A stretch of DNA of 64,000 nucleotides from Haloferula rosea (GTDB lineage Bacteria > Verrucomicrobiota > Verrucomicrobiia > Verrucomicrobiales > Akkermansiaceae): NCBI RefSeq assembly GCF_016595525.1, contig NZ_JAENII010000002.1:1-64000 (forward strand). Direction: 5' to 3'. This document shows, piece after piece, positions 30,720-37,500 of the stretch. Numbering within the stretch: position 1 is the stretch's first letter; every line of letters begins with the position of its first letter. The notes below the pieces were generated by a model. It ran no database searches, had not been told where the DNA came from, and was given only the letters and a program-made list of their open reading frames with translations. Position numbers and translations under genes: made by a program.

Positions 30720-31016
30720 TCAGTCTGATCCCAGCTTGGTAATCCTGGCTGAGCGCTGGCATTCCGGGCAATGGAAGACCCTCCAGCTGTTTCCGTCTGG
30801 ATCGTGAAGGTCGGGCCGTCGTTGAAGCTTGTTCATCCCGCAGTTCGGCCGGGATGGGCGTGCCATCGTGGCCCGCCAAATCAACCACCCCATGACGAAG
30901 AGTCCGAGGCCACCGCCGACCCAAGCGGATACGGAGTGGAAGGCTTCGGATTCGATGACATGAGCAATGCCCGCATAGATCAGACCGATCATGATCGCTG
31001 CCAGCGCCACCATCAT
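30720..31016 (-). CDS. Small two-helix membrane protein with Cys-rich C-terminus
   Basis: 98 residues from the ATG at 31016 (another ATG is one codon later). Two membrane helices (~1-20 and ~29-48) are followed by a tail with C at NCGMN and an FHCPECQRS zinc-ribbon-like pair. The upstream part of the open frame overlaps dnaE2 and was discarded. It is 79 bases downstream of the dnaE2 stop on the same strand, so it could be the last gene of that operon. No family recognised. Confidence 0.55.
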   Translation of the reverse strand: MMVALAAIMIGLIYAGIAHVIESEAFHSVSAWVGGGLGLFVMGWLIWRATMARPSRPNCGMNKLQRRPDLHDPDGNSWRVFHCPECQRSARITKLGSD

Positions 31017-31095
31017 GGTGTGCCTGTGGAATCCAGGGTGCGAGTTGATGAGCTGGTATATGGAGGGGGGAATTCTGGCAAGCGAAGGCCGGCGG

Positions 31096-34000
31096 TCAGT
31101 GGAAGTCGTGGGAGGGGGCTGGGGTGGTATGGTCGCTGCCGGGAAGGGGTTCGATGTGGGTGATGTAGACGGTGGGCTGGTTGCCTTCGGAGATCTGCAG
31201 CCGGCCATGACAGAGGAGGAAGGGCTCGGTGGTGATGGTGAGCTTGTGCTGCTGGAAGGTGTCGCGGGGGACGAAGAGGTTGGCGATGCCGGTTTCGTCT
31301 TCGAGGGAGATGAAGCAGTGGCCTTTGGCGGTGGACGGGCGCTGGCGGCAGATGACCATGCCGGCGACGCTGATCGGGGTGCCGTGGCGAAGGTGGTGGA
31401 GGTCGGTGGCCGCCTTCGGCGGAGTGGAAAGTAAAAAGTGGGAAGTAGAAAGTGATGATTGGTGGTGATTGGCGCCGGGGGTGGGGGGCTCGGGTTGGAG
31501 AGGGGCTTGGGGGCTGGGGCTGGCTTCCTCTTTCGCCGACGCTACGGCGGACAGGGATGCTCGTGGTCCGGTGGGTGCGGGGTGGGGAATTGCTTGGGTT
31601 ATGGGGCGAGCTGAAGCTCGCGGTCCGGTGGGTGCGGGGTGGGGAGCGGCTTGGAAAGCCGCGCTCCATGATTTTCGCCAGAGGGCCATCGGATGGGGGC
31701 CGGTGGTGGATCCGGTGAGGGTGAGGTCGGTGGCGAGGCGTTCTGAATCGGACATGGGGGGGAGGGGGCCGCCTACGGCGGAGTGATGAGTGGAAAGTGG
31801 AAAGTGAGAAGTGGAGGAAGGTGTCGCTTTGCGACGGGGGGAGGGGCGCTCGGGTTCCGGGGTGCGACTGGAGTCGTGCGGTCCAATCGGCTCGGGTTGT
31901 GAAGCGGGTTGGAAACCCGCGCTCCATAGGTCGTCGTGGAGGGGGAGTTCGGATTGCCAGAGGGCGTGGCGGCGGTGCTCGATTTCGGGAAGGGGATTGA
32001 GGGCACCGGAGGCGGCGAGGAGGCGGCGTTCCTTGTCGTTGGGCTGGACGCGGCGGAGGAAGTCGGGGAGGGATTCGAAGGGGGCTTCGTTTCGCTCGTG
32101 GACGATGCGCTGGGCGGTGGATTTTTTGAGGCCTTTGAGGCGGTGGAGGCCGAGGCGGAGGTAAGACGGGGGCTGTGGAGTTTTTTCACCGCCAAGACGC
32201 GAAGGACGCAAAGTTTTTTGAGGTTGTTTTTCTGGGCTTTTGATTTCCGGGTCCTCGACGGTGGTTTGGTAACTACTATGAACGACGGAGATGGGTCGGG
32301 TGCGGACGCGGTGGCGTTTGGCGTCTTCGAGCAGGGTGTTGACGGAGTAGAAGCCCATCGGTTGGTTGTTGATGAGGCCGCAATAGAATTCGGCGGGGTG
32401 GTGGACCTTCAACCAGCAGGACAGGTAGGCGATGAGGGCGAAGGAGATGGCGTGGGATTCGGGGAAACCGTAGAGGGCGAAGGAGCCGATGGACTGGATG
32501 ACCTTCTGCTGGGTGGGCGCGGGGATGTTTTTTGCGGTCATGCGCTGTTGGAGTTTGTGGGCGACTTTCTCCATTTTTTCATCGGCGCGCTTGAAGGCCA
32601 TGGCGCGACGGAGTTCATCGGCCTCGGCGCCGGTGAAGTCGGCGAGGGTCATGGCCATGCGCAGGACCTGCTCCTGGAAGAGGGGGACGCCGAGGGTGCG
32701 CTCGAGAATGGGGGCGAGATCGGGATGGATGAGGTCGACGGGTTCGCGACCGTTGCGCCGGTTGAGGTAAGGGTGAACAAGGTCGCCGACGATGGGGCCG
32801 GGTCGGATGATGGCGACTTCGATGGCGAGGTCATAGAAGGTCTGGGGGCGCATGATGGGCAGGGTGGCCATCTGGGCGCGGGACTCGACCTGGAAGGTGC
32901 CGATGGTGTCGGCGCGGCAAAGCATGTCGAAGACGGCGGGGTCGTTCTTGGGGATGGTGGCGGGGTCGATGGGGTGGCCGCGTTTCTCGCAGAGGTACAG
33001 GGCGTCCTCGATGGCGGCGAGCATGCCGAGGCCGAGCAGGTCGACTTTGACGATGCCGAGGTCCTCACAGTCGTCCTTGTCCCACTGGACGATGGTGCGT
33101 CCGGGCATGGTGGCGGGTTGGAGTGGGACGATGTGGTCGAGTCCGCGGTCGCAGATGATCATGCCGCCGGAGTGCTGGCCGAGGTGGCGTGGCATGGTGA
33201 GGACGGACTGGTAGAGGTGCAGGAGGGCGGGGAGGCGTGGATGGGTTCCGGGGATGCCGGCTTTGATGAAGACGTTGGTGAGGGCCTGCTGCGCAGGAGT
33301 GCTGAGTGTTGGGTAAAAAGTAGAAAGTGGAAAAGGAGTCGGTTTAGGCGCTGCCGGTATCGCTTGGCCTCTGACGCCTGACCCTTTTGCTTGGGTTGGG
33401 GGCTGGGGTTGCGTTCCTTCGCCGGGGCTTCGGCGGGTTGGTGGGGGGGGAGCCGGAGCAGGATGCTCCGGCGACGGACTGGAGCGGGACGCTCCAGCCA
33501 CGGGGCCACCGCGGGAGAGTTCGGAGAAGCGGTCGGCGATGGCGGGAGGGAAACCGAGGACCTTGGACATTTCGCGGAAGGCGGAGCGGGGGCGGTAGGT
33601 GATGACGTTGGCGGTCATGGCGGCACCGCGTGGGCCGTATTTTTCGAAAACGTGCTGGATGACGAGTTCGCGTCGGTCGCCGGAGGGGAAGTCGATGTCG
33701 ATGTCCGGCCAGGAGCGTCGGTTCTCGGAAAGGAAGCGCTCGAAGAGGAGGCCGCCGCCGACGGGGTCGACATTGGTGATGCCGAGGGCGTAGCAGACGG
33801 CGGAGTTGGCGGCGGATCCGCGGCCTTGGCAGAAGATGCCGTGGGCTTTGGCGAATTCCATGATCTCGTGGACGATGAGGAAGTAGCCGGGGAAGCCGAG
33901 TTTGTGGATCAGGTGGAATTCGTGTTCGAGCTGGGTTTTGACTTTTCTACTAATGCTGCCGTAGCGGCGGTGGGCGCCGGCGTAGGTGAGGCGCCGGAGG

Positions 34001-34917
34001 CGGGTGGTCTGCTCTCCGAGGGTGAGGGGGAATCCGTCGGGGGCATGGGCATCGGGGAAGCGGTAGCCGAGGTTCTCGAGGGTGAATTCCAGCCGGTCGG
34101 TGACGCGCTGGACATTGGTGAGGGCCTCGGGGAGGTCGGCAAAGAGGTCGCGCATTTGCCGGGGGGACTTCAGGTGACGTTCGCCATTGGGGGCGAGCAG
34201 GGCGCCGGCCTGATCAAGGGTGGTGTGGTGGCGAAGGCAGGTGAAGGCGTCGCAAAGCAGGCGGTCGGCCTTGGTGGCGTGGAGGGGGGAGTTGGTGGCG
34301 AGAAGGGGGAGCTTCAGATGGTGGGCGAGCTCGATGAGCAATCGGTTGATGCGGGCATCGTCCCGCAGGTGATGACGGGTGAGCTGGATGTAGAGGTTGT
34401 CGTGACCGAAGCGCTCGATGAGGAGGCGTGTGAAGTCCTCGGCTTCCTGTCTTTTTCCCTGGAGGAGAAGTCGGGAGAGGTGGAAGTCGCGGTCGCCGGT
34501 GAGGGCGATCACTCCGTGATCGAATTTCCAATTTTCAATGTTCCAATGATCAATGAGGAGTGTCGCTTTGTGAGGGGGAGAGAGAGCAGGAGCGAGACGC
34601 TCCTTACACGGACTGGAGCGAGACGCTCCAGCCACGGTGGTGAGGTGCTGGCAGAGGTGGGCGTAGCCGGTGCGGGTGGTGGCGAGGGAGCTGACGAGTG
34701 GGGTGCCTTCATGGGATTCCAAGGTGGTGCCGACGAGGGCGCGGATGCCATGCTGACGAGCGGCGGCATGGGCGCGTGGGCTGCCTTGGAAACCGAGATG
34801 ATCGCAGAGGGCGATGGCTGGATAGCCAAGTTCGGCCGCTCGGGCGACGAGGGTTTCAGGTTGGCTGGCTCCGCGCAGGAAGGAGAAGGCGGAACGTGCA
34901 TGGAGTTCGGAGAACAA
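31096..34917 (-). CDS. dnaE2: Error-prone DNA polymerase III alpha subunit, DnaE2, enlarged by in-frame repeat inserts
   Basis: 1273 residues. N-terminal PHP domain (FSELHARSAFSFLRGASQPE), polymerase palm with PDIDIDF (Asp405, 407, 409), the FALYGFPESHAISFALIAYL helix-hairpin-helix region and a C-terminal OB fold (ISVAGMVICRQRP) identify DnaE2, which extends damaged primer ends together with ImuB during SOS mutagenesis. The usual length is about 1000-1080. Five Pro/Ser/Thr-rich stretches (residues ~95-132, 471-541, 890-917, 998-1050, 1083-1170) interrupt conserved sequence without breaking the frame; removing them leaves ~995 residues. It is third in imuA-imuB-dnaE2. Whether the enlarged protein is active cannot be told. 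Confidence 0.95.
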   Translation of the reverse strand: MFSELHARSAFSFLRGASQPETLVARAAELGYPAIALCDHLGFQGSPRAHAAARQHGIRALVGTTLESHEGTPLVSSLATTRTGYAHLCQHLTTVAGASRSSPCKERLAPALSPPHKATLLIDHWNIENWKFDHGVIALTGDRDFHLSRLLLQGKRQEAEDFTRLLIERFGHDNLYIQLTRHHLRDDARINRLLIELAHHLKLPLLATNSPLHATKADRLLCDAFTCLRHHTTLDQAGALLAPNGERHLKSPRQMRDLFADLPEALTNVQRVTDRLEFTLENLGYRFPDAHAPDGFPLTLGEQTTRLRRLTYAGAHRRYGSISRKVKTQLEHEFHLIHKLGFPGYFLIVHEIMEFAKAHGIFCQGRGSAANSAVCYALGITNVDPVGGGLLFERFLSENRRSWPDIDIDFPSGDRRELVIQHVFEKYGPRGAAMTANVITYRPRSAFREMSKVLGFPPAIADRFSELSRGGPVAGASRSSPSPEHPAPAPPPPTRRSPGEGTQPQPPTQAKGSGVRGQAIPAAPKPTPFPLSTFYPTLSTPAQQALTNVFIKAGIPGTHPRLPALLHLYQSVLTMPRHLGQHSGGMIICDRGLDHIVPLQPATMPGRTIVQWDKDDCEDLGIVKVDLLGLGMLAAIEDALYLCEKRGHPIDPATIPKNDPAVFDMLCRADTIGTFQVESRAQMATLPIMRPQTFYDLAIEVAIIRPGPIVGDLVHPYLNRRNGREPVDLIHPDLAPILERTLGVPLFQEQVLRMAMTLADFTGAEADELRRAMAFKRADEKMEKVAHKLQQRMTAKNIPAPTQQKVIQSIGSFALYGFPESHAISFALIAYLSCWLKVHHPAEFYCGLINNQPMGFYSVNTLLEDAKRHRVRTRPISVVHSSYQTTVEDPEIKSPEKQPQKTLRPSRLGGEKTPQPPSYLRLGLHRLKGLKKSTAQRIVHERNEAPFESLPDFLRRVQPNDKERRLLAASGALNPLPEIEHRRHALWQSELPLHDDLWSAGFQPASQPEPIGPHDSSRTPEPERPSPRRKATPSSTSHFPLSTHHSAVGGPLPPMSDSERLATDLTLTGSTTGPHPMALWRKSWSAAFQAAPHPAPTGPRASARPITQAIPHPAPTGPRASLSAVASAKEEASPSPQAPLQPEPPTPGANHHQSSLSTSHFLLSTPPKAATDLHHLRHGTPISVAGMVICRQRPSTAKGHCFISLEDETGIANLFVPRDTFQQHKLTITTEPFLLCHGRLQISEGNQPTVYITHIEPLPGSDHTTPAPSHDFH
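31408..31671 (-). repeat. In-frame repeat insert 5 in dnaE2 (residues ~1083-1170)
   Basis: Holds several plus-strand elements: hairpin GCGGCTT-GGA-AAGCCGC (31646-31662), two identical 24-base copies starting GGTCCGGTGGGTGCGG (31565-31588 and 31622-31645), hairpin GCGAGC-TGAA-GCTCGC between them, and hairpin CCGCC-TTC-GGCGG (31410-31422) followed by GAGTGGAAAGT and AAAGTGGGAAGT tracts. The encoded peptide is Pro/Ala/Ser-rich and unlike DnaE2. Boundaries are estimated from where DnaE2-like sequence stops and resumes. Confidence 0.75.
31768..31926 (-). repeat. In-frame repeat insert 4 in dnaE2 (residues ~998-1050)
   Basis: Contains hairpin CCGCC-TAC-GGCGG (31769-31781) followed by GAGTGATGAGTGGAAAGTGG and further AAAGTGAGAAGT units, and at the other end GCGGGTT-GGA-AACCCGC (31904-31920) followed by GCTCC. 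Both are variants of elements in insert 5, with paired base changes that keep the stems. The insert lies between the helical C-terminal part and the OB fold region of DnaE2. Confidence 0.75.
32167..32250 (-). repeat. In-frame repeat insert 3 in dnaE2 (residues ~890-917)
   Basis: Contains CACCGCCAAGACGCGAAGG followed by ACGCAAAG on the plus strand (32187-32213), flanked by T-runs. From memory this sequence is a common intergenic repeat in environmental bacterial genomes. It is read here as a Lys/Pro/Gln-rich loop just before the conserved LRLGLHRLKGL segment. Confidence 0.65.
33295..33507 (-). repeat. In-frame repeat insert 2 in dnaE2 (residues ~471-541)
   Basis: Begins (plus strand) near CCTGC-TGC-GCAGG (33285-33297) followed by GAGTG and AAAAAGTAGAAAGTGG tracts, and ends with GCCGGAGCA-GGA-TGCTCCGGC and GACTGGAGCGGGACGCTCC (33477-33495) followed by AGCCACGG. 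The last element is the same as one in insert 1 with one difference in 27 bases and is read in the same frame (VAGASRSS). Confidence 0.75.
34522..34635 (-). repeat. In-frame repeat insert 1 in dnaE2 PHP domain (residues ~95-132)
   Basis: Two copies of GGAGCG-AGA-CGCTCC (34589-34603 and 34615-34629), the second inside GACTGGAGCGAGACGCTCC plus AGCCACGG, are followed on the other side by an AT-rich stretch (TTCCAATTTTCAATGTTCC) read as WNIENWKF. The insert separates TGYAHLCQHLTTVA from GVIALTGDRDFHLSRLL, which are contiguous in ordinary DnaE2. Confidence 0.75.
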
Positions 34918-35031
34918 GGGAGATTTGGAATTTGAACTGCGGAGGGCGTGGGGATTGCGGGAGCGAAGTGGGGGAGAGGGAACTGCGAAAAGGGCGCTAA
35001 ATTTGCTGGGGTTGTGTGCTGGGGTTGTGAA

Positions 35032-35048
35032 GCGGCTTGGAAAGCCGC
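35032..35048. repeat. Intergenic copy of the GCGGCTT-GGA-AAGCCGC hairpin
   Basis: A perfect 7-bp stem with a GGA loop, followed by GCTCC, in the 204-base spacer between imuB and dnaE2. The same 17 bases occur at 31646-31662 inside dnaE2, and a stem-compensated variant at 31904-31920; all three share flanking GCTCC, and two share GGGTTGTGAA in front. Confidence 0.8.
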
Positions 35049-35121
35049 GCTCCTGATTTGACTGGCATCGCTTGGGCCGGGAGCCTTGGCCTCTGCCCCT
35101 GATGGAGTGCCTTGGTTTTTC

Positions 35122-36669
35122 TCACGAATAGCGGCCTTGGAGCTGCCAGGTTTTCGGTGGGTGGTGGGCGAGGCGAAGCAGGTGGCCGGAATCGAGTTGG
35201 AGGTCCCATTCCAGGTGCTGCCATTGCTTGTCGGGATTCCACCATTCGCCGGAGAGTGGAAACGGGCCGTGGAGGTGGGCGATCTGTCCTCGGTGAGGAC
35301 CGGTCAGCAGGGCCAGGGGGTGTGGGTGGCGTCCCCGTTTCTCACTGGCGACGGCGACCTCTGGAGGAGGGCGGAAGCGCTGGAGCGGTAGACTGAAGTG
35401 GTCTGTGGAAAAGTGAGCGGGAGGGGGACTGGGACGTTGGAAGAGGGACTGGGGTGGTGTGAGGTCGAAGCTGTCCGGTCGGTGCGTGAAATGGGGGCGG
35501 GGGAAGCCGATGTGATCTTCGCCGAGAAGGGCGGCGAGGCGTACGAGTGTGTCGGCAAGCCGGTGAGGTTGGCGGACGCCACGCTCGAAGAGATCGTGCT
35601 GGCCGCTGGGGGGCTCACAGGGGGTGAGGCTGATTTCCAGGCCGGTGACGGGGGCCCCGAGGGTGAGCTGCTCAAGATGGGTGGCGAGGGGGCGAAGAAG
35701 GACTTCGAGCGTGTTGCTGGGTTCAGGAAGCCGTACCCGGTAATGGTGTTCGGGGGGCTTCTCGAGAATCAGTTTCAAATGAACTTCAGAAATGAAGCGA
35801 TAGTTTGAATTGGCGCGGGAAACTAAAGTTTGAAGGATTCTCTTTGCTTTGAATATCAGTGATTCACAGTTCTCCAACGAATGTTCCAAGTGGATGCATG
35901 AAACAAAAGATTCCAAGGGTTTGAAGGTGTGAAGCAGTCGTTGTTGGTCTTGGAGGAGGAGGGCGTGGAGTTGGTGGATGGAGGGGCCGAGTCGTTCGCT
36001 GAGTTCCTTTCGTGGGAGGCGGGCGAGGTCGCCGAGGTGACGGATGCCCCAGGGCTCGAACAGTTCGATGGTGGCTGTGGGGATCTGGAGTGATGGCAGC
36101 TGCTGGATGAGTTGGAGAGGGAGGAGGTCGAGTTGATCGAGAAGGGGAAGCTCGGGGTGTCGGGGGGCTTTCCAGCGGAACTCGGGGCCGCGGTAGATGA
36201 GGGCGTGGCTGGTGGCTGGGGAGAGGGCGAAGAGGTGGGCGAGATCGGGAGTGGGGGCGGTGGCGAATTGGGCGGGGAGGCCGAGTGGGGGGAGTCGCGT
36301 GCGGGAGAGGGATTCGGTGGCTTGGGTGGAGGTCCGATGGAGGTCGAGGATGAGGGTGTCGGGGGTGGTGAGTTCGAAGTCGGGAGTCAGGGATTCGGTG
36401 AGGGTGAGGAGGTCGCGGAAGGCTTGGATTTCGGCCTCCGGGTCACGGGCGATGAGGGCGAGGTCGGGGCAGCGGGCAAGGGCTCGGGTGATGGAGAGTC
36501 CGGAGCGGACACCTTGGGCGGTGGCGCGTCGGTTCGGGTGGAGGATGTGGGGGGCTTGGTGCTGGTTTCGGGGTGATGAAACGGTGGCGCAGGGGGTCAG
36601 GCGGTTCTGCGGTTGGTGGCGCAGGATCGCTTCAAGGGGGAGGGCGGGAAGGTGGAGGGCGAGGAACAA
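35122..36669 (-). CDS. imuB: ImuB, catalytically inactive Y-family polymerase-like mutagenesis factor
   Basis: 515 residues from a TTG at 36669; family members begin with LxLALHLPxLPLEA, exactly what this start gives, while the longer open frame upstream reads through a simple repeat and imuA. The Y-family fold is visible (VRSGLSITRALARCPDLALI, WGIRHLGDLARLPRKELSERLG), but the acidic metal ligands near the N-terminus are missing, as is usual for ImuB. It acts as the hub linking ImuA, DnaE2 and the beta clamp in damage-induced mutagenesis. It lies 62 bases after imuA and 204 bases before dnaE2. Confidence 0.9.
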   Translation of the reverse strand: MFLALHLPALPLEAILRHQPQNRLTPCATVSSPRNQHQAPHILHPNRRATAQGVRSGLSITRALARCPDLALIARDPEAEIQAFRDLLTLTESLTPDFELTTPDTLILDLHRTSTQATESLSRTRLPPLGLPAQFATAPTPDLAHLFALSPATSHALIYRGPEFRWKAPRHPELPLLDQLDLLPLQLIQQLPSLQIPTATIELFEPWGIRHLGDLARLPRKELSERLGPSIHQLHALLLQDQQRLLHTFKPLESFVSCIHLEHSLENCESLIFKAKRILQTLVSRANSNYRFISEVHLKLILEKPPEHHYRVRLPEPSNTLEVLLRPLATHLEQLTLGAPVTGLEISLTPCEPPSGQHDLFERGVRQPHRLADTLVRLAALLGEDHIGFPRPHFTHRPDSFDLTPPQSLFQRPSPPPAHFSTDHFSLPLQRFRPPPEVAVASEKRGRHPHPLALLTGPHRGQIAHLHGPFPLSGEWWNPDKQWQHLEWDLQLDSGHLLRLAHHPPKTWQLQGRYS

Positions 36670-36731
36670 GGATTTCGGATTTCGGATTGGGGATTTCGGA
36701 TTGGGGATTGGGGATTGGGGGGATTGGGGGA
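36670..36731. repeat. Short tandem repeat filling the imuA-imuB spacer
   Basis: The plus strand reads GGATTTCGGATTTCGGATTG and continues as GGGATTTCGGATTGGGGATT and GGGGATTGGGG units, ending in GGGGGATTGGGGGA. Units of 7-14 bases (GGATTTC, GGATTGG) fill the whole spacer from the imuA stop codon to the imuB start codon. It is G-rich on the plus strand and C-rich on the coding strand. Repeats of this kind are common between verrucomicrobial genes; here it replaces any normal ribosome-binding region for imuB. Confidence 0.8.
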
Positions 36732-37451
36732 TTATCCGGCGATGCGGGTTTTGGTGGTGAGGCGGGTGGTCCGGGCGGTGATGGATTTCTGGAGTTCGGA
36801 ACGGGGCAGGAGGAGGTCGGCGAGGGTGAGGTGGTGGGACAGGGTGAGTCGCAAGGCGGTGCCGGGGATGAAGGGGGTGGGGGTGAGTGCGAGCAGGGTG
36901 GTTTGGGTGGACTCGGCCAACTGGCGGAGTCGGTGCCAGGAGGAGCGGGGGATGCGCTGGAGTTCGCGCGGGGGCAGGGAGGAGAGGTCGAGAAGGACGA
37001 GGGGGAGGTTGCCGTCGCGCAGCAGGAGGTCGGCGGACTTCAGGGCCAGCTGGGTCTCGTGGCATCGGAGCCAGAGGATTTTCTGGCAGTCCTCGGTGCT
37101 TAAGGATCCGGGGTCGAACTGGTCGCGTGCGTCGATCAGCGCGAGTGGGAGTCCTGGGTGGGGGGCGTTGTCTTCCTCGGAGGCGAGAAGGGTGCTGACC
37201 AGCAGGGAGATTCCGCAGGTCGGGTGCTCCGGTGAGATTTCGGTGATGGCGCCGGAGGGGAATCCGGTGTCACGGGAGCACCAGGTGTGGAGAGGAAGGT
37301 GGGCCGGGTGGTCCCGGGGAGCTTCGGGTGGAAGGTCCCGAGGGTGGGGTGGAGGCCGGCGTTCCTGTGTGGAGGCGGGGGTGTTGCGATGAGCGGCGGG
37401 GAATTTCTCCCGGAGCTGTTTTCGCAGGTTGATGACCGTTTCGCTTGGCAT
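36732..37451 (-). CDS. imuA: ImuA, RecA-like mutagenesis accessory protein
   Basis: 239 residues. The RecA-like core is recognisable from GAITEISPEHPTCGISLLVS (degenerate P-loop region), LPLALIDARDQFDP, the RCHETQLALKSADLLLRDG segment and the LVLLDLSSL Walker-B-like strand. A proline-rich N-terminal stretch (~25-50) is unusual. ImuA joins ImuB and DnaE2 in SOS mutagenesis. It is the first gene of imuA-imuB-dnaE2, and a LexA-type palindrome lies 35 bases upstream of its start codon. Confidence 0.88.
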   Translation of the reverse strand: MPSETVINLRKQLREKFPAAHRNTPASTQERRPPPHPRDLPPEAPRDHPAHLPLHTWCSRDTGFPSGAITEISPEHPTCGISLLVSTLLASEEDNAPHPGLPLALIDARDQFDPGSLSTEDCQKILWLRCHETQLALKSADLLLRDGNLPLVLLDLSSLPPRELQRIPRSSWHRLRQLAESTQTTLLALTPTPFIPGTALRLTLSHHLTLADLLLPRSELQKSITARTTRLTTKTRIAG

Positions 37452-37486
37452 GAGGTGCGACGGGCATCTTGGCGGGGGATTTCAAA

Positions 37487-37500
37487 TGTTCAAGTGAACA
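37487..37500. promoter_or_regulatory. LexA-box candidate for imuA-imuB-dnaE2
   Basis: TGTTCAAGTGAACA is a perfect TGTTC-N4-GAACA palindrome, the LexA-binding motif I recall being reported for Verrucomicrobia. It is 35 bases upstream of the imuA ATG and overlaps the last three bases (stop codon) of the preceding tatD gene. This position fits repression of a promoter inside the end of tatD. Confidence 0.82.

Follow-up and report, generated by a model that had tools for sequence, protein, structure and literature searches.

The dnaE2 gene of Haloferula rosea is interrupted by five in-frame inserts, and we consider it likely that these are repeats of the kind found in spacers, RAYT-type and others, which are translated in disordered loops of a working DnaE2 and tolerated there. 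Across the species of this group of verrucomicrobial bacteria, what fills these loops turns over fast, whereas the polymerase stays conserved. Spacer repeats look unusually dense in mutation-control genes, where they lie in disordered loops. The gene was found in the window, by which we mean the whole stretch of 64,000 nucleotides that was analysed.

The 1273-residue product of positions 31096-34917 matches the NCBIfam model NF004225 'error-prone DNA polymerase' with 1066.8 bits (cut-off 939) and is a DnaE2 error-prone polymerase. Four acidic residues, D405, D407, D409 and D626, are invariant in 34 aligned sequences and presumably form the acidic active-site motif of the Pol III alpha fold. 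The gene belongs to an imuA-imuB-dnaE2 cassette, in which imuB was recognized by PF00817; the imuA-like gene gave no HMM match at E 1e-5 and owes its name solely to its place in the gene order and to its alignment with relatives:

dnaE2, 31096..34917, minus strand, 1273 codons, TTG start, five in-frame inserts
imuB, 35122..36669, minus strand, PF00817 (IMS), TTG start chosen by coding score
imuA-like gene, 36732..37451, minus strand, named from gene order and alignment with relatives

The reading frame of dnaE2 contains no internal stop. Compared with the relatives G002 and E54 and with two fragments from G001, its backbone gives a dN of 0.134-0.174, a dS of 0.50-0.58 and a dN/dS of about 0.27-0.30; it is under purifying selection, and by these sequence measures the polymerase looks functional. 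A pseudogene or frameshift was dropped on the open frame and this ratio. Repeats can mislead assembly and the genome is a draft of 69 contigs, but misassembly or a decaying pseudogene is very improbable against the open frame, the backbone ratio, the intact conserved motifs and the enlargement of the same loops in other assemblies, including the single-contig G002.

Five in-frame inserts had been claimed in the initial annotation, at about residues 95-132, 471-541, 890-917, 998-1050 and 1083-1170, and they are confirmed by alignment, with almost the same limits. The bounds listed here were drawn by eye on a 30-sequence alignment (the window sequence and 29 of 80 loci) and on a 20-row alignment with congeners. 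To describe the content of the inserts we use modules F1-F7, seeded from the dnaE2 operon, of which F1 is a pair of hairpins, F2a reads GGAGCGCGG-N-TTTCCAA-N-CCGC, F2b reads GGACCGCGAGCTTCAGCTCGC, and F3 is a CACTTTCCACTTTT-like tract with an end hairpin:

Insert 1, 34525..34641, minus strand, residues 93-131, in the PHP domain; F1 hairpin pair and F5 word
Insert 2, 33274..33516, minus strand, residues 468-548; F1 hairpin pair, then F3 tract with end hairpin
Insert 3, 32158..32256, minus strand, residues 888-920; F4 word
Insert 4, 31768..31932, minus strand, residues 996-1050; F2a hairpin, F2b-like hairpin with another stem, F3 tract with end hairpin
Insert 5, 31408..31671, minus strand, residues 1083-1170; F2a hairpin, F2b REP, F7 word, F3 tract with end hairpin
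F2b copy inside insert 5, 31594..31629, minus strand, the module that brackets a RAYT gene elsewhere in the genome
F2a copy, 35028..35053, minus strand, in the imuB-dnaE2 spacer
F6 tandem word, 36671..36719, minus strand, in the imuA-imuB spacer, its end adjoining the imuB start

By these bounds the inserts total 296 codons, part of which replaces short native loops, and relatives without inserts align across about 1030-1060 residues. The inserts differ from the backbone in composition (19.9% Pro and 13.2% Ser versus 6.8% and 4.7%) and in GC3 (0.54 versus 0.83), and the dicodon coding score is negative in all five of them and positive in all six backbone blocks. Read in the sense direction, each insert is free of stops in two frames out of three, so that a fitting copy would leave the gene intact; on the antisense strand one frame is stop-free in three of the five. 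It is hardly conceivable that the protein lacks the repeats because they are cut out of the RNA or passed over by the ribosome. Bypassing elements have hairpins of similar general shape, and the likeness extends to general shape only; all five inserts are in frame and stop-free, which removal or skipping would not need, and Rfam returned no family at gathering score over 31000-37500, on which ground a known RNA family in the operon was also dropped.

Two AlphaFold models were used for the protein. In the model of residues 1-990 (mean pLDDT 82.8), pLDDT lies below 50 at 101-125, 395-397 and 472-539 and within 893-911; in that of residues 559-1273 (mean pLDDT 74.7), it does so within 893-911 and 1000-1048 and at 1100-1161, as well as at 708-710 and over much of the artificially cut N-terminus to about 622. 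The core of each insert is therefore predicted to be disordered inside an otherwise confident fold, and inserted folded domains were dropped on the low pLDDT in both models.

Much of the insert content recurs in the genome. The initial annotation had pointed to an element common to inserts 1 and 2, and indeed CTGGAGCG-N-GACGCTCCAG (window strand) occurs in both in the same frame, reading VAGASRSSP; the 4.68-Mb genome has 10 matches at one mismatch or fewer, six of them exact and two in dnaE2, compared with none for the reversed control. Genome-wide, the patterns for F1 and F2b found 10 and 24 matches at one mismatch or fewer and that for F2a found 24 at two or fewer, with 0, 2 and 0 matches, respectively, for the reversed controls. 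The in-gene/spacer classifier of these pattern hits was excluded, having mislabelled the known dnaE2 copies L007, L214, L233 and L234 because of other inserts in their flanks, and the in-gene labels L010, L013, L230 and L251 were likewise left uncounted.

We then surveyed the modules in 1.264 Mb (27% of the genome; 980 called genes, 90% coding), a sample in which contigs C44, C69, C5 and C6 had been picked for F1 matches and C66 and C33 for Y1 transposase matches. Of 74 non-overlapping hits kept, 55 fall in spacers, which make up far less of the sample than coding sequence does. The other 19 are inside genes, dnaE2 accounting for 11; an antisense F1 hit among the 19 may be chance. In co-directional spacers the modules are oriented with transcription 34 times and against it five times, counts that are not independent because modules form arrays. 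F6 matches the imuA-imuB spacer only, and F4 (insert 3), F5 (second half of insert 1) and F7 (middle of insert 5) match in dnaE2 alone within this sample. Repeats dispersed in the genome are present in four of the five inserts; insert 3, with no second copy in the 1.264 Mb, is repeat-derived by appearance only. The description of the inserts as repeats of intergenic type thus stands for the dispersed content of these four, and for the stretches F4, F5 and F7, single-copy in the sample, it lacks support in the genome.

The end hairpins of F3 were compared in 13 distinct stem-loops, picked by eye among 20 F3 hits with repeats and unclear hairpins omitted. Compensatory change was seen (four of five pairs with double changes), and the covariation value was 0.544, as against 0.111 for shuffled and at most 0.047 for slid versions, which fits a hairpin role or a hairpin origin, as DNA or RNA. 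Seven of the 10 F3 tracts in co-directional spacers have their end no more than 10 nt from the start codon that follows (for example at C44:246231, C69:63572 and C6:88587), the expected position of a ribosome binding site.

Counts of F1-F7 are an unfair test of whether dnaE2 is special, because the modules were seeded from its operon. We therefore built a library from spacers only (51 segments from 42 of 633 spacers, those adjoining dnaE2 included), which matched inside seven of the 980 genes. dnaE2 ranks first, with seven segments covering 366 bp, followed by an FtsX-type permease and MutS with two segments each; four genes have one segment each (a 141-residue ORF, the antisense F1 site, a glycosyltransferase and an aldehyde dehydrogenase family protein). 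Since spacer libraries match other genes here and in the relative E54, dnaE2 as the sole affected gene was dropped. Neither imuA nor imuB of this genome is matched by the library; in alignments both have long variable peptides in the same linkers as their relatives, two such linkers in the case of imuB. A second repeat-rich operon was noticed at C44:227932-254000 (L105, L106), on one strand, with modules in many spacers and in-frame modules in the FtsX-type permease, the glycosyltransferase and the aldehyde dehydrogenase family gene.

One module, F2b, is tied to a transposase gene. The gene at C5:129286-129897 was called a REP-associated tyrosine transposase (NCBIfam NF047646, 99.2 bits, cut-off 80), and it is flanked by four F2b copies upstream and by three plus one inverted copy downstream:

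RAYT gene with eight F2b hairpins, C5:129068-130084 (L159), copies about 55 bp apart within arrays

The genome has seven Y1 transposase matches, and the NCBIfam test was run on the C5 gene. For four of the five others in the sample, the surrounding 2.5 kb are free of modules, and the fifth, C44:251228, is accompanied by one F3 and two F2b copies; the match on C9 lies outside the sample. F2b, a short palindrome with many copies, is found mostly between genes (11 of 17 sampled hits), with six hits inside genes; besides insert 5 of dnaE2 it occurs in MutS, the permease, the glycosyltransferase and the aldehyde dehydrogenase family gene, translated as GPRASARP or DRELQLAP depending on the gene. 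By this gene context F2b, at least, is a REP associated with a RAYT gene, and its copies may have arisen by transposition. In being arranged around such a gene it resembles the REP/RAYT systems (REPtrons). It differs from them in that, by eye, the unpaired bases beside the stem are GGAC and no GTAG/CGTC tag of the REP superfamily, or listed variant, stands beside its copies; moreover, a transposase is assigned to F2b and to none of F1, F2a, F3 and F4-F7.

Comparison with relatives shows the same loops with different content. The window genome forms a clade of four with G001, G002 and L014 ('Verrucomicrobiaceae bacterium E54') in the 20-row alignment. Sites 1 and 4 are filled in all four members, with differing peptides; site 2 is long in two of the four, site 3 is filled in the window genome only, and site 5 is long in one, shorter in two and absent in one. 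Such inserts are missing from dnaE2 of G003, G004, G005, G006, G007, G008, G010 and G011, apart from a Gly-rich stretch at site 4 in G011 and a somewhat longer, charged site 2 in G006 and G007. A moderate lengthening of sites 1, 2, 4 and 5 is seen in L016 and L018. The wider alignment shows TGWKPAA at site 1 of L019; in L062, site 4 holds NVEPPTPNVEH and site 3 a further peptide. Such words may be repeats in other genomes. At the DNA level, three of the four insert comparisons gave a pS of 0.65-0.77 and a pN of 0.57-0.66, values that mean not alignable, and the fourth, on a short piece (G001b), gave 0.31 and 0.40. The relatives do not share all five inserts as conserved, structured domains, a finding that the initial annotation had named as one that would refute its reading. 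Among other records, a second dnaE2-like copy in G003 (L138, G003:C9) lies in two frames, and four more (L033, L047, L070 and L086) have dnaE2-like sequence split across two frames.

E54 is the strongest independent case. Its dnaE2, used as a DNA query against its own genome, gave at least 77 matches at E<=1 and at least 56 at E<=0.001, self included, both lower bounds, with 40 of 320 first-look candidates scored. The matches listed sit at insert positions, except for self and one weak backbone match (query 1014-1214), and the gene has one further repeat word at residues 66-76. The imuA-like gene and imuB of E54 also contain repeat-derived inserts, and a spacer-only library from this genome (399,497 bases) matches four of 306 genes, namely dnaE2, imuB, the imuA-like gene and a U32 peptidase family gene, in a sample that includes contig C122 because dnaE2 sits there. 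A 116-bp element, 90% identical between its copies, lies at site 1 of dnaE2 and in imuA in different frames, which indicates that DNA, not peptide, spreads:

116-bp element copy in imuA of E54, L014:2590-2705
116-bp element copy in dnaE2 of E54, L014:5307-5422

The U32 peptidase family gene (L301-L302, E54 C178:56780-61015) shows repeat-type peptides in three places, and its called frame has a doubtful N-terminal extension. For G002, a 400-kb sample yielded no spacer repeats and no match in 306 genes, a test of lower power with just 24 kb of spacers (162 in number); the enlarged loops of G002 would accordingly be relics or of other origin.

The mismatch repair gene mutS is affected as well:

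mutS with two in-frame inserts, C69:1881-4598 (L146), minus strand, NF003810, 987.7 bits

The inserts lie around residues 387-430 and 648-680. G002 and E54 have MutS inserts in the same two loops, and a GPRASARP-like word is present in the second loop of all three species; both inserts are missing from MutS of G003, G004, G005 and G007 to G011, and the searches of G001 and G006 returned no MutS match. Inserts in two loops shared by three species point to an insertion older than their split that has been edited since.

These comparisons bear on whether the loops are simply old low-complexity linkers of the clade, diverging fast without constraint, with their likeness to spacers due to GC-rich simple sequence or to repeats amplified outward. 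We regard this as unlikely. It would accommodate the enlarged loops of G002 with no spacer repeats in the sample, the GPRASARP-like word kept in the second MutS insert of three species, which makes part of the content old, and the lack of other copies of F4, F5 and F7 in the 1.264 Mb surveyed. It sits poorly with specific hairpin modules that recur where reversed controls give 0 to 2 matches, with the at least 56 matches in E54, with the same element read in different frames in two E54 genes, and with a site 3 filled in the window genome alone among the four clade members.

The reading we prefer, repeats translated in tolerant loops, would work as follows. Short, mostly hairpin-forming repeats of operon spacers would lodge in-frame in flexible loops of DnaE2 and be translated there, a copy of fitting length and phase giving an extra disordered loop without breaking the gene. 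The enlarged loop would then gain, swap and lose modules, events we infer from the comparison above, and this would leave close relatives with different peptides at the same sites. We think it most likely that the host tolerates these loops and that they are close to neutral. Tolerance in loops had been proposed in the initial annotation, and it is supported by the predicted disorder, the variation among relatives and the considerable share of dispersed repeats in the inserts.

It had further suggested that proteins that raise the mutation rate may tolerate such repeats best, which finds support in part. The dnaE2 gene here and the whole mutasome in E54 agree with this; MutS, which lowers the mutation rate and is affected in three species, does not, and nor do the permease, glycosyltransferase and aldehyde dehydrogenase here or the U32 peptidase family in E54. 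Mutation-control genes look over-represented in both genomes surveyed, an excess that rests on the E54 operon, dnaE2 here and one old MutS insertion in non-random samples. The inserts might be selected because they alter how DnaE2, the mutasome or MutS works and thereby tune the mutation rate, in line with the mutator idea of PMC3733652, but we think this quite improbable. In its favour, three of the four E54 genes matched among 306 are the imuA-like gene, imuB and dnaE2, MutS is affected in three species, and repair genes are over-represented in PMC3733652; against it, those three E54 genes are not independent because they form one operon that was sampled owing to dnaE2, genes outside DNA repair are matched too, and insert content is not conserved.

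The kind is not new: a paper of 2013 (PMC3733652) already described REPs that lie in-frame within repair genes, DnaE2 among them. According to the available part of that paper, in-frame REPs occur in several species, many of them in genes for DNA synthesis and repair, with DnaE2 named; the verrucomicrobium O. terrae is richest in intragenic GTAG repeats, and the authors propose a loop or linker location and a possible mutator effect of intragenic REPs in repair genes. The repeats described here are similar in being palindromic, mostly in spacers and in part in-frame in repair genes, DnaE2 among them. They are unlike the cases in that part of the paper in forming five composite inserts in a single gene from several unrelated modules, in occupying all three mutasome genes of one relative and MutS loops common to three species, in the differing content of the same loops in close relatives, and in an F2b without the GTAG/CGTC tag. 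Among the titles and abstract openings searched, a scope that leaves out most subscription papers, none dealt with a whole mutasome colonised by repeats.

The comparison with Rickettsia palindromic elements made in the initial annotation holds for behaviour, both being in-frame palindromic inserts in unrelated, apparently working genes (PMC10969869 and PMC3733652, as available). Membership does not follow, because the inserts combine several modules: as described in the available part of PMC10969869, a Rickettsia palindromic element is one unit of about 150 bp whose ORF encodes a conserved peptide, whereas the inserts here mix modules, and one module is read in different frames.

New here are the extent of the phenomenon, the involvement of a whole mutasome, the refilling of loops at fixed positions and the connection with a RAYT. 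The 2013 findings on REPs in repair genes are extended to a complete mutagenesis operon, in one species, and to a pair of MutS loops common to three, and one module is tied to a resident RAYT gene. The four relatives, with the same loops, different content and a backbone synonymous distance of about 0.5-0.6, form a natural series that allows testing whether selfish repeats alter an error-prone polymerase. It is possible, though we hold it doubtful, that RAYT-type repeats in this clade settle preferentially in the mutation-control genes as a set (imuA, imuB, dnaE2 and mutS) and that the constantly changing loops of these genes provide an evolvable means of adjusting SOS mutagenesis and mismatch repair; if so, a selfish element and the mutation rate of its host would evolve together.
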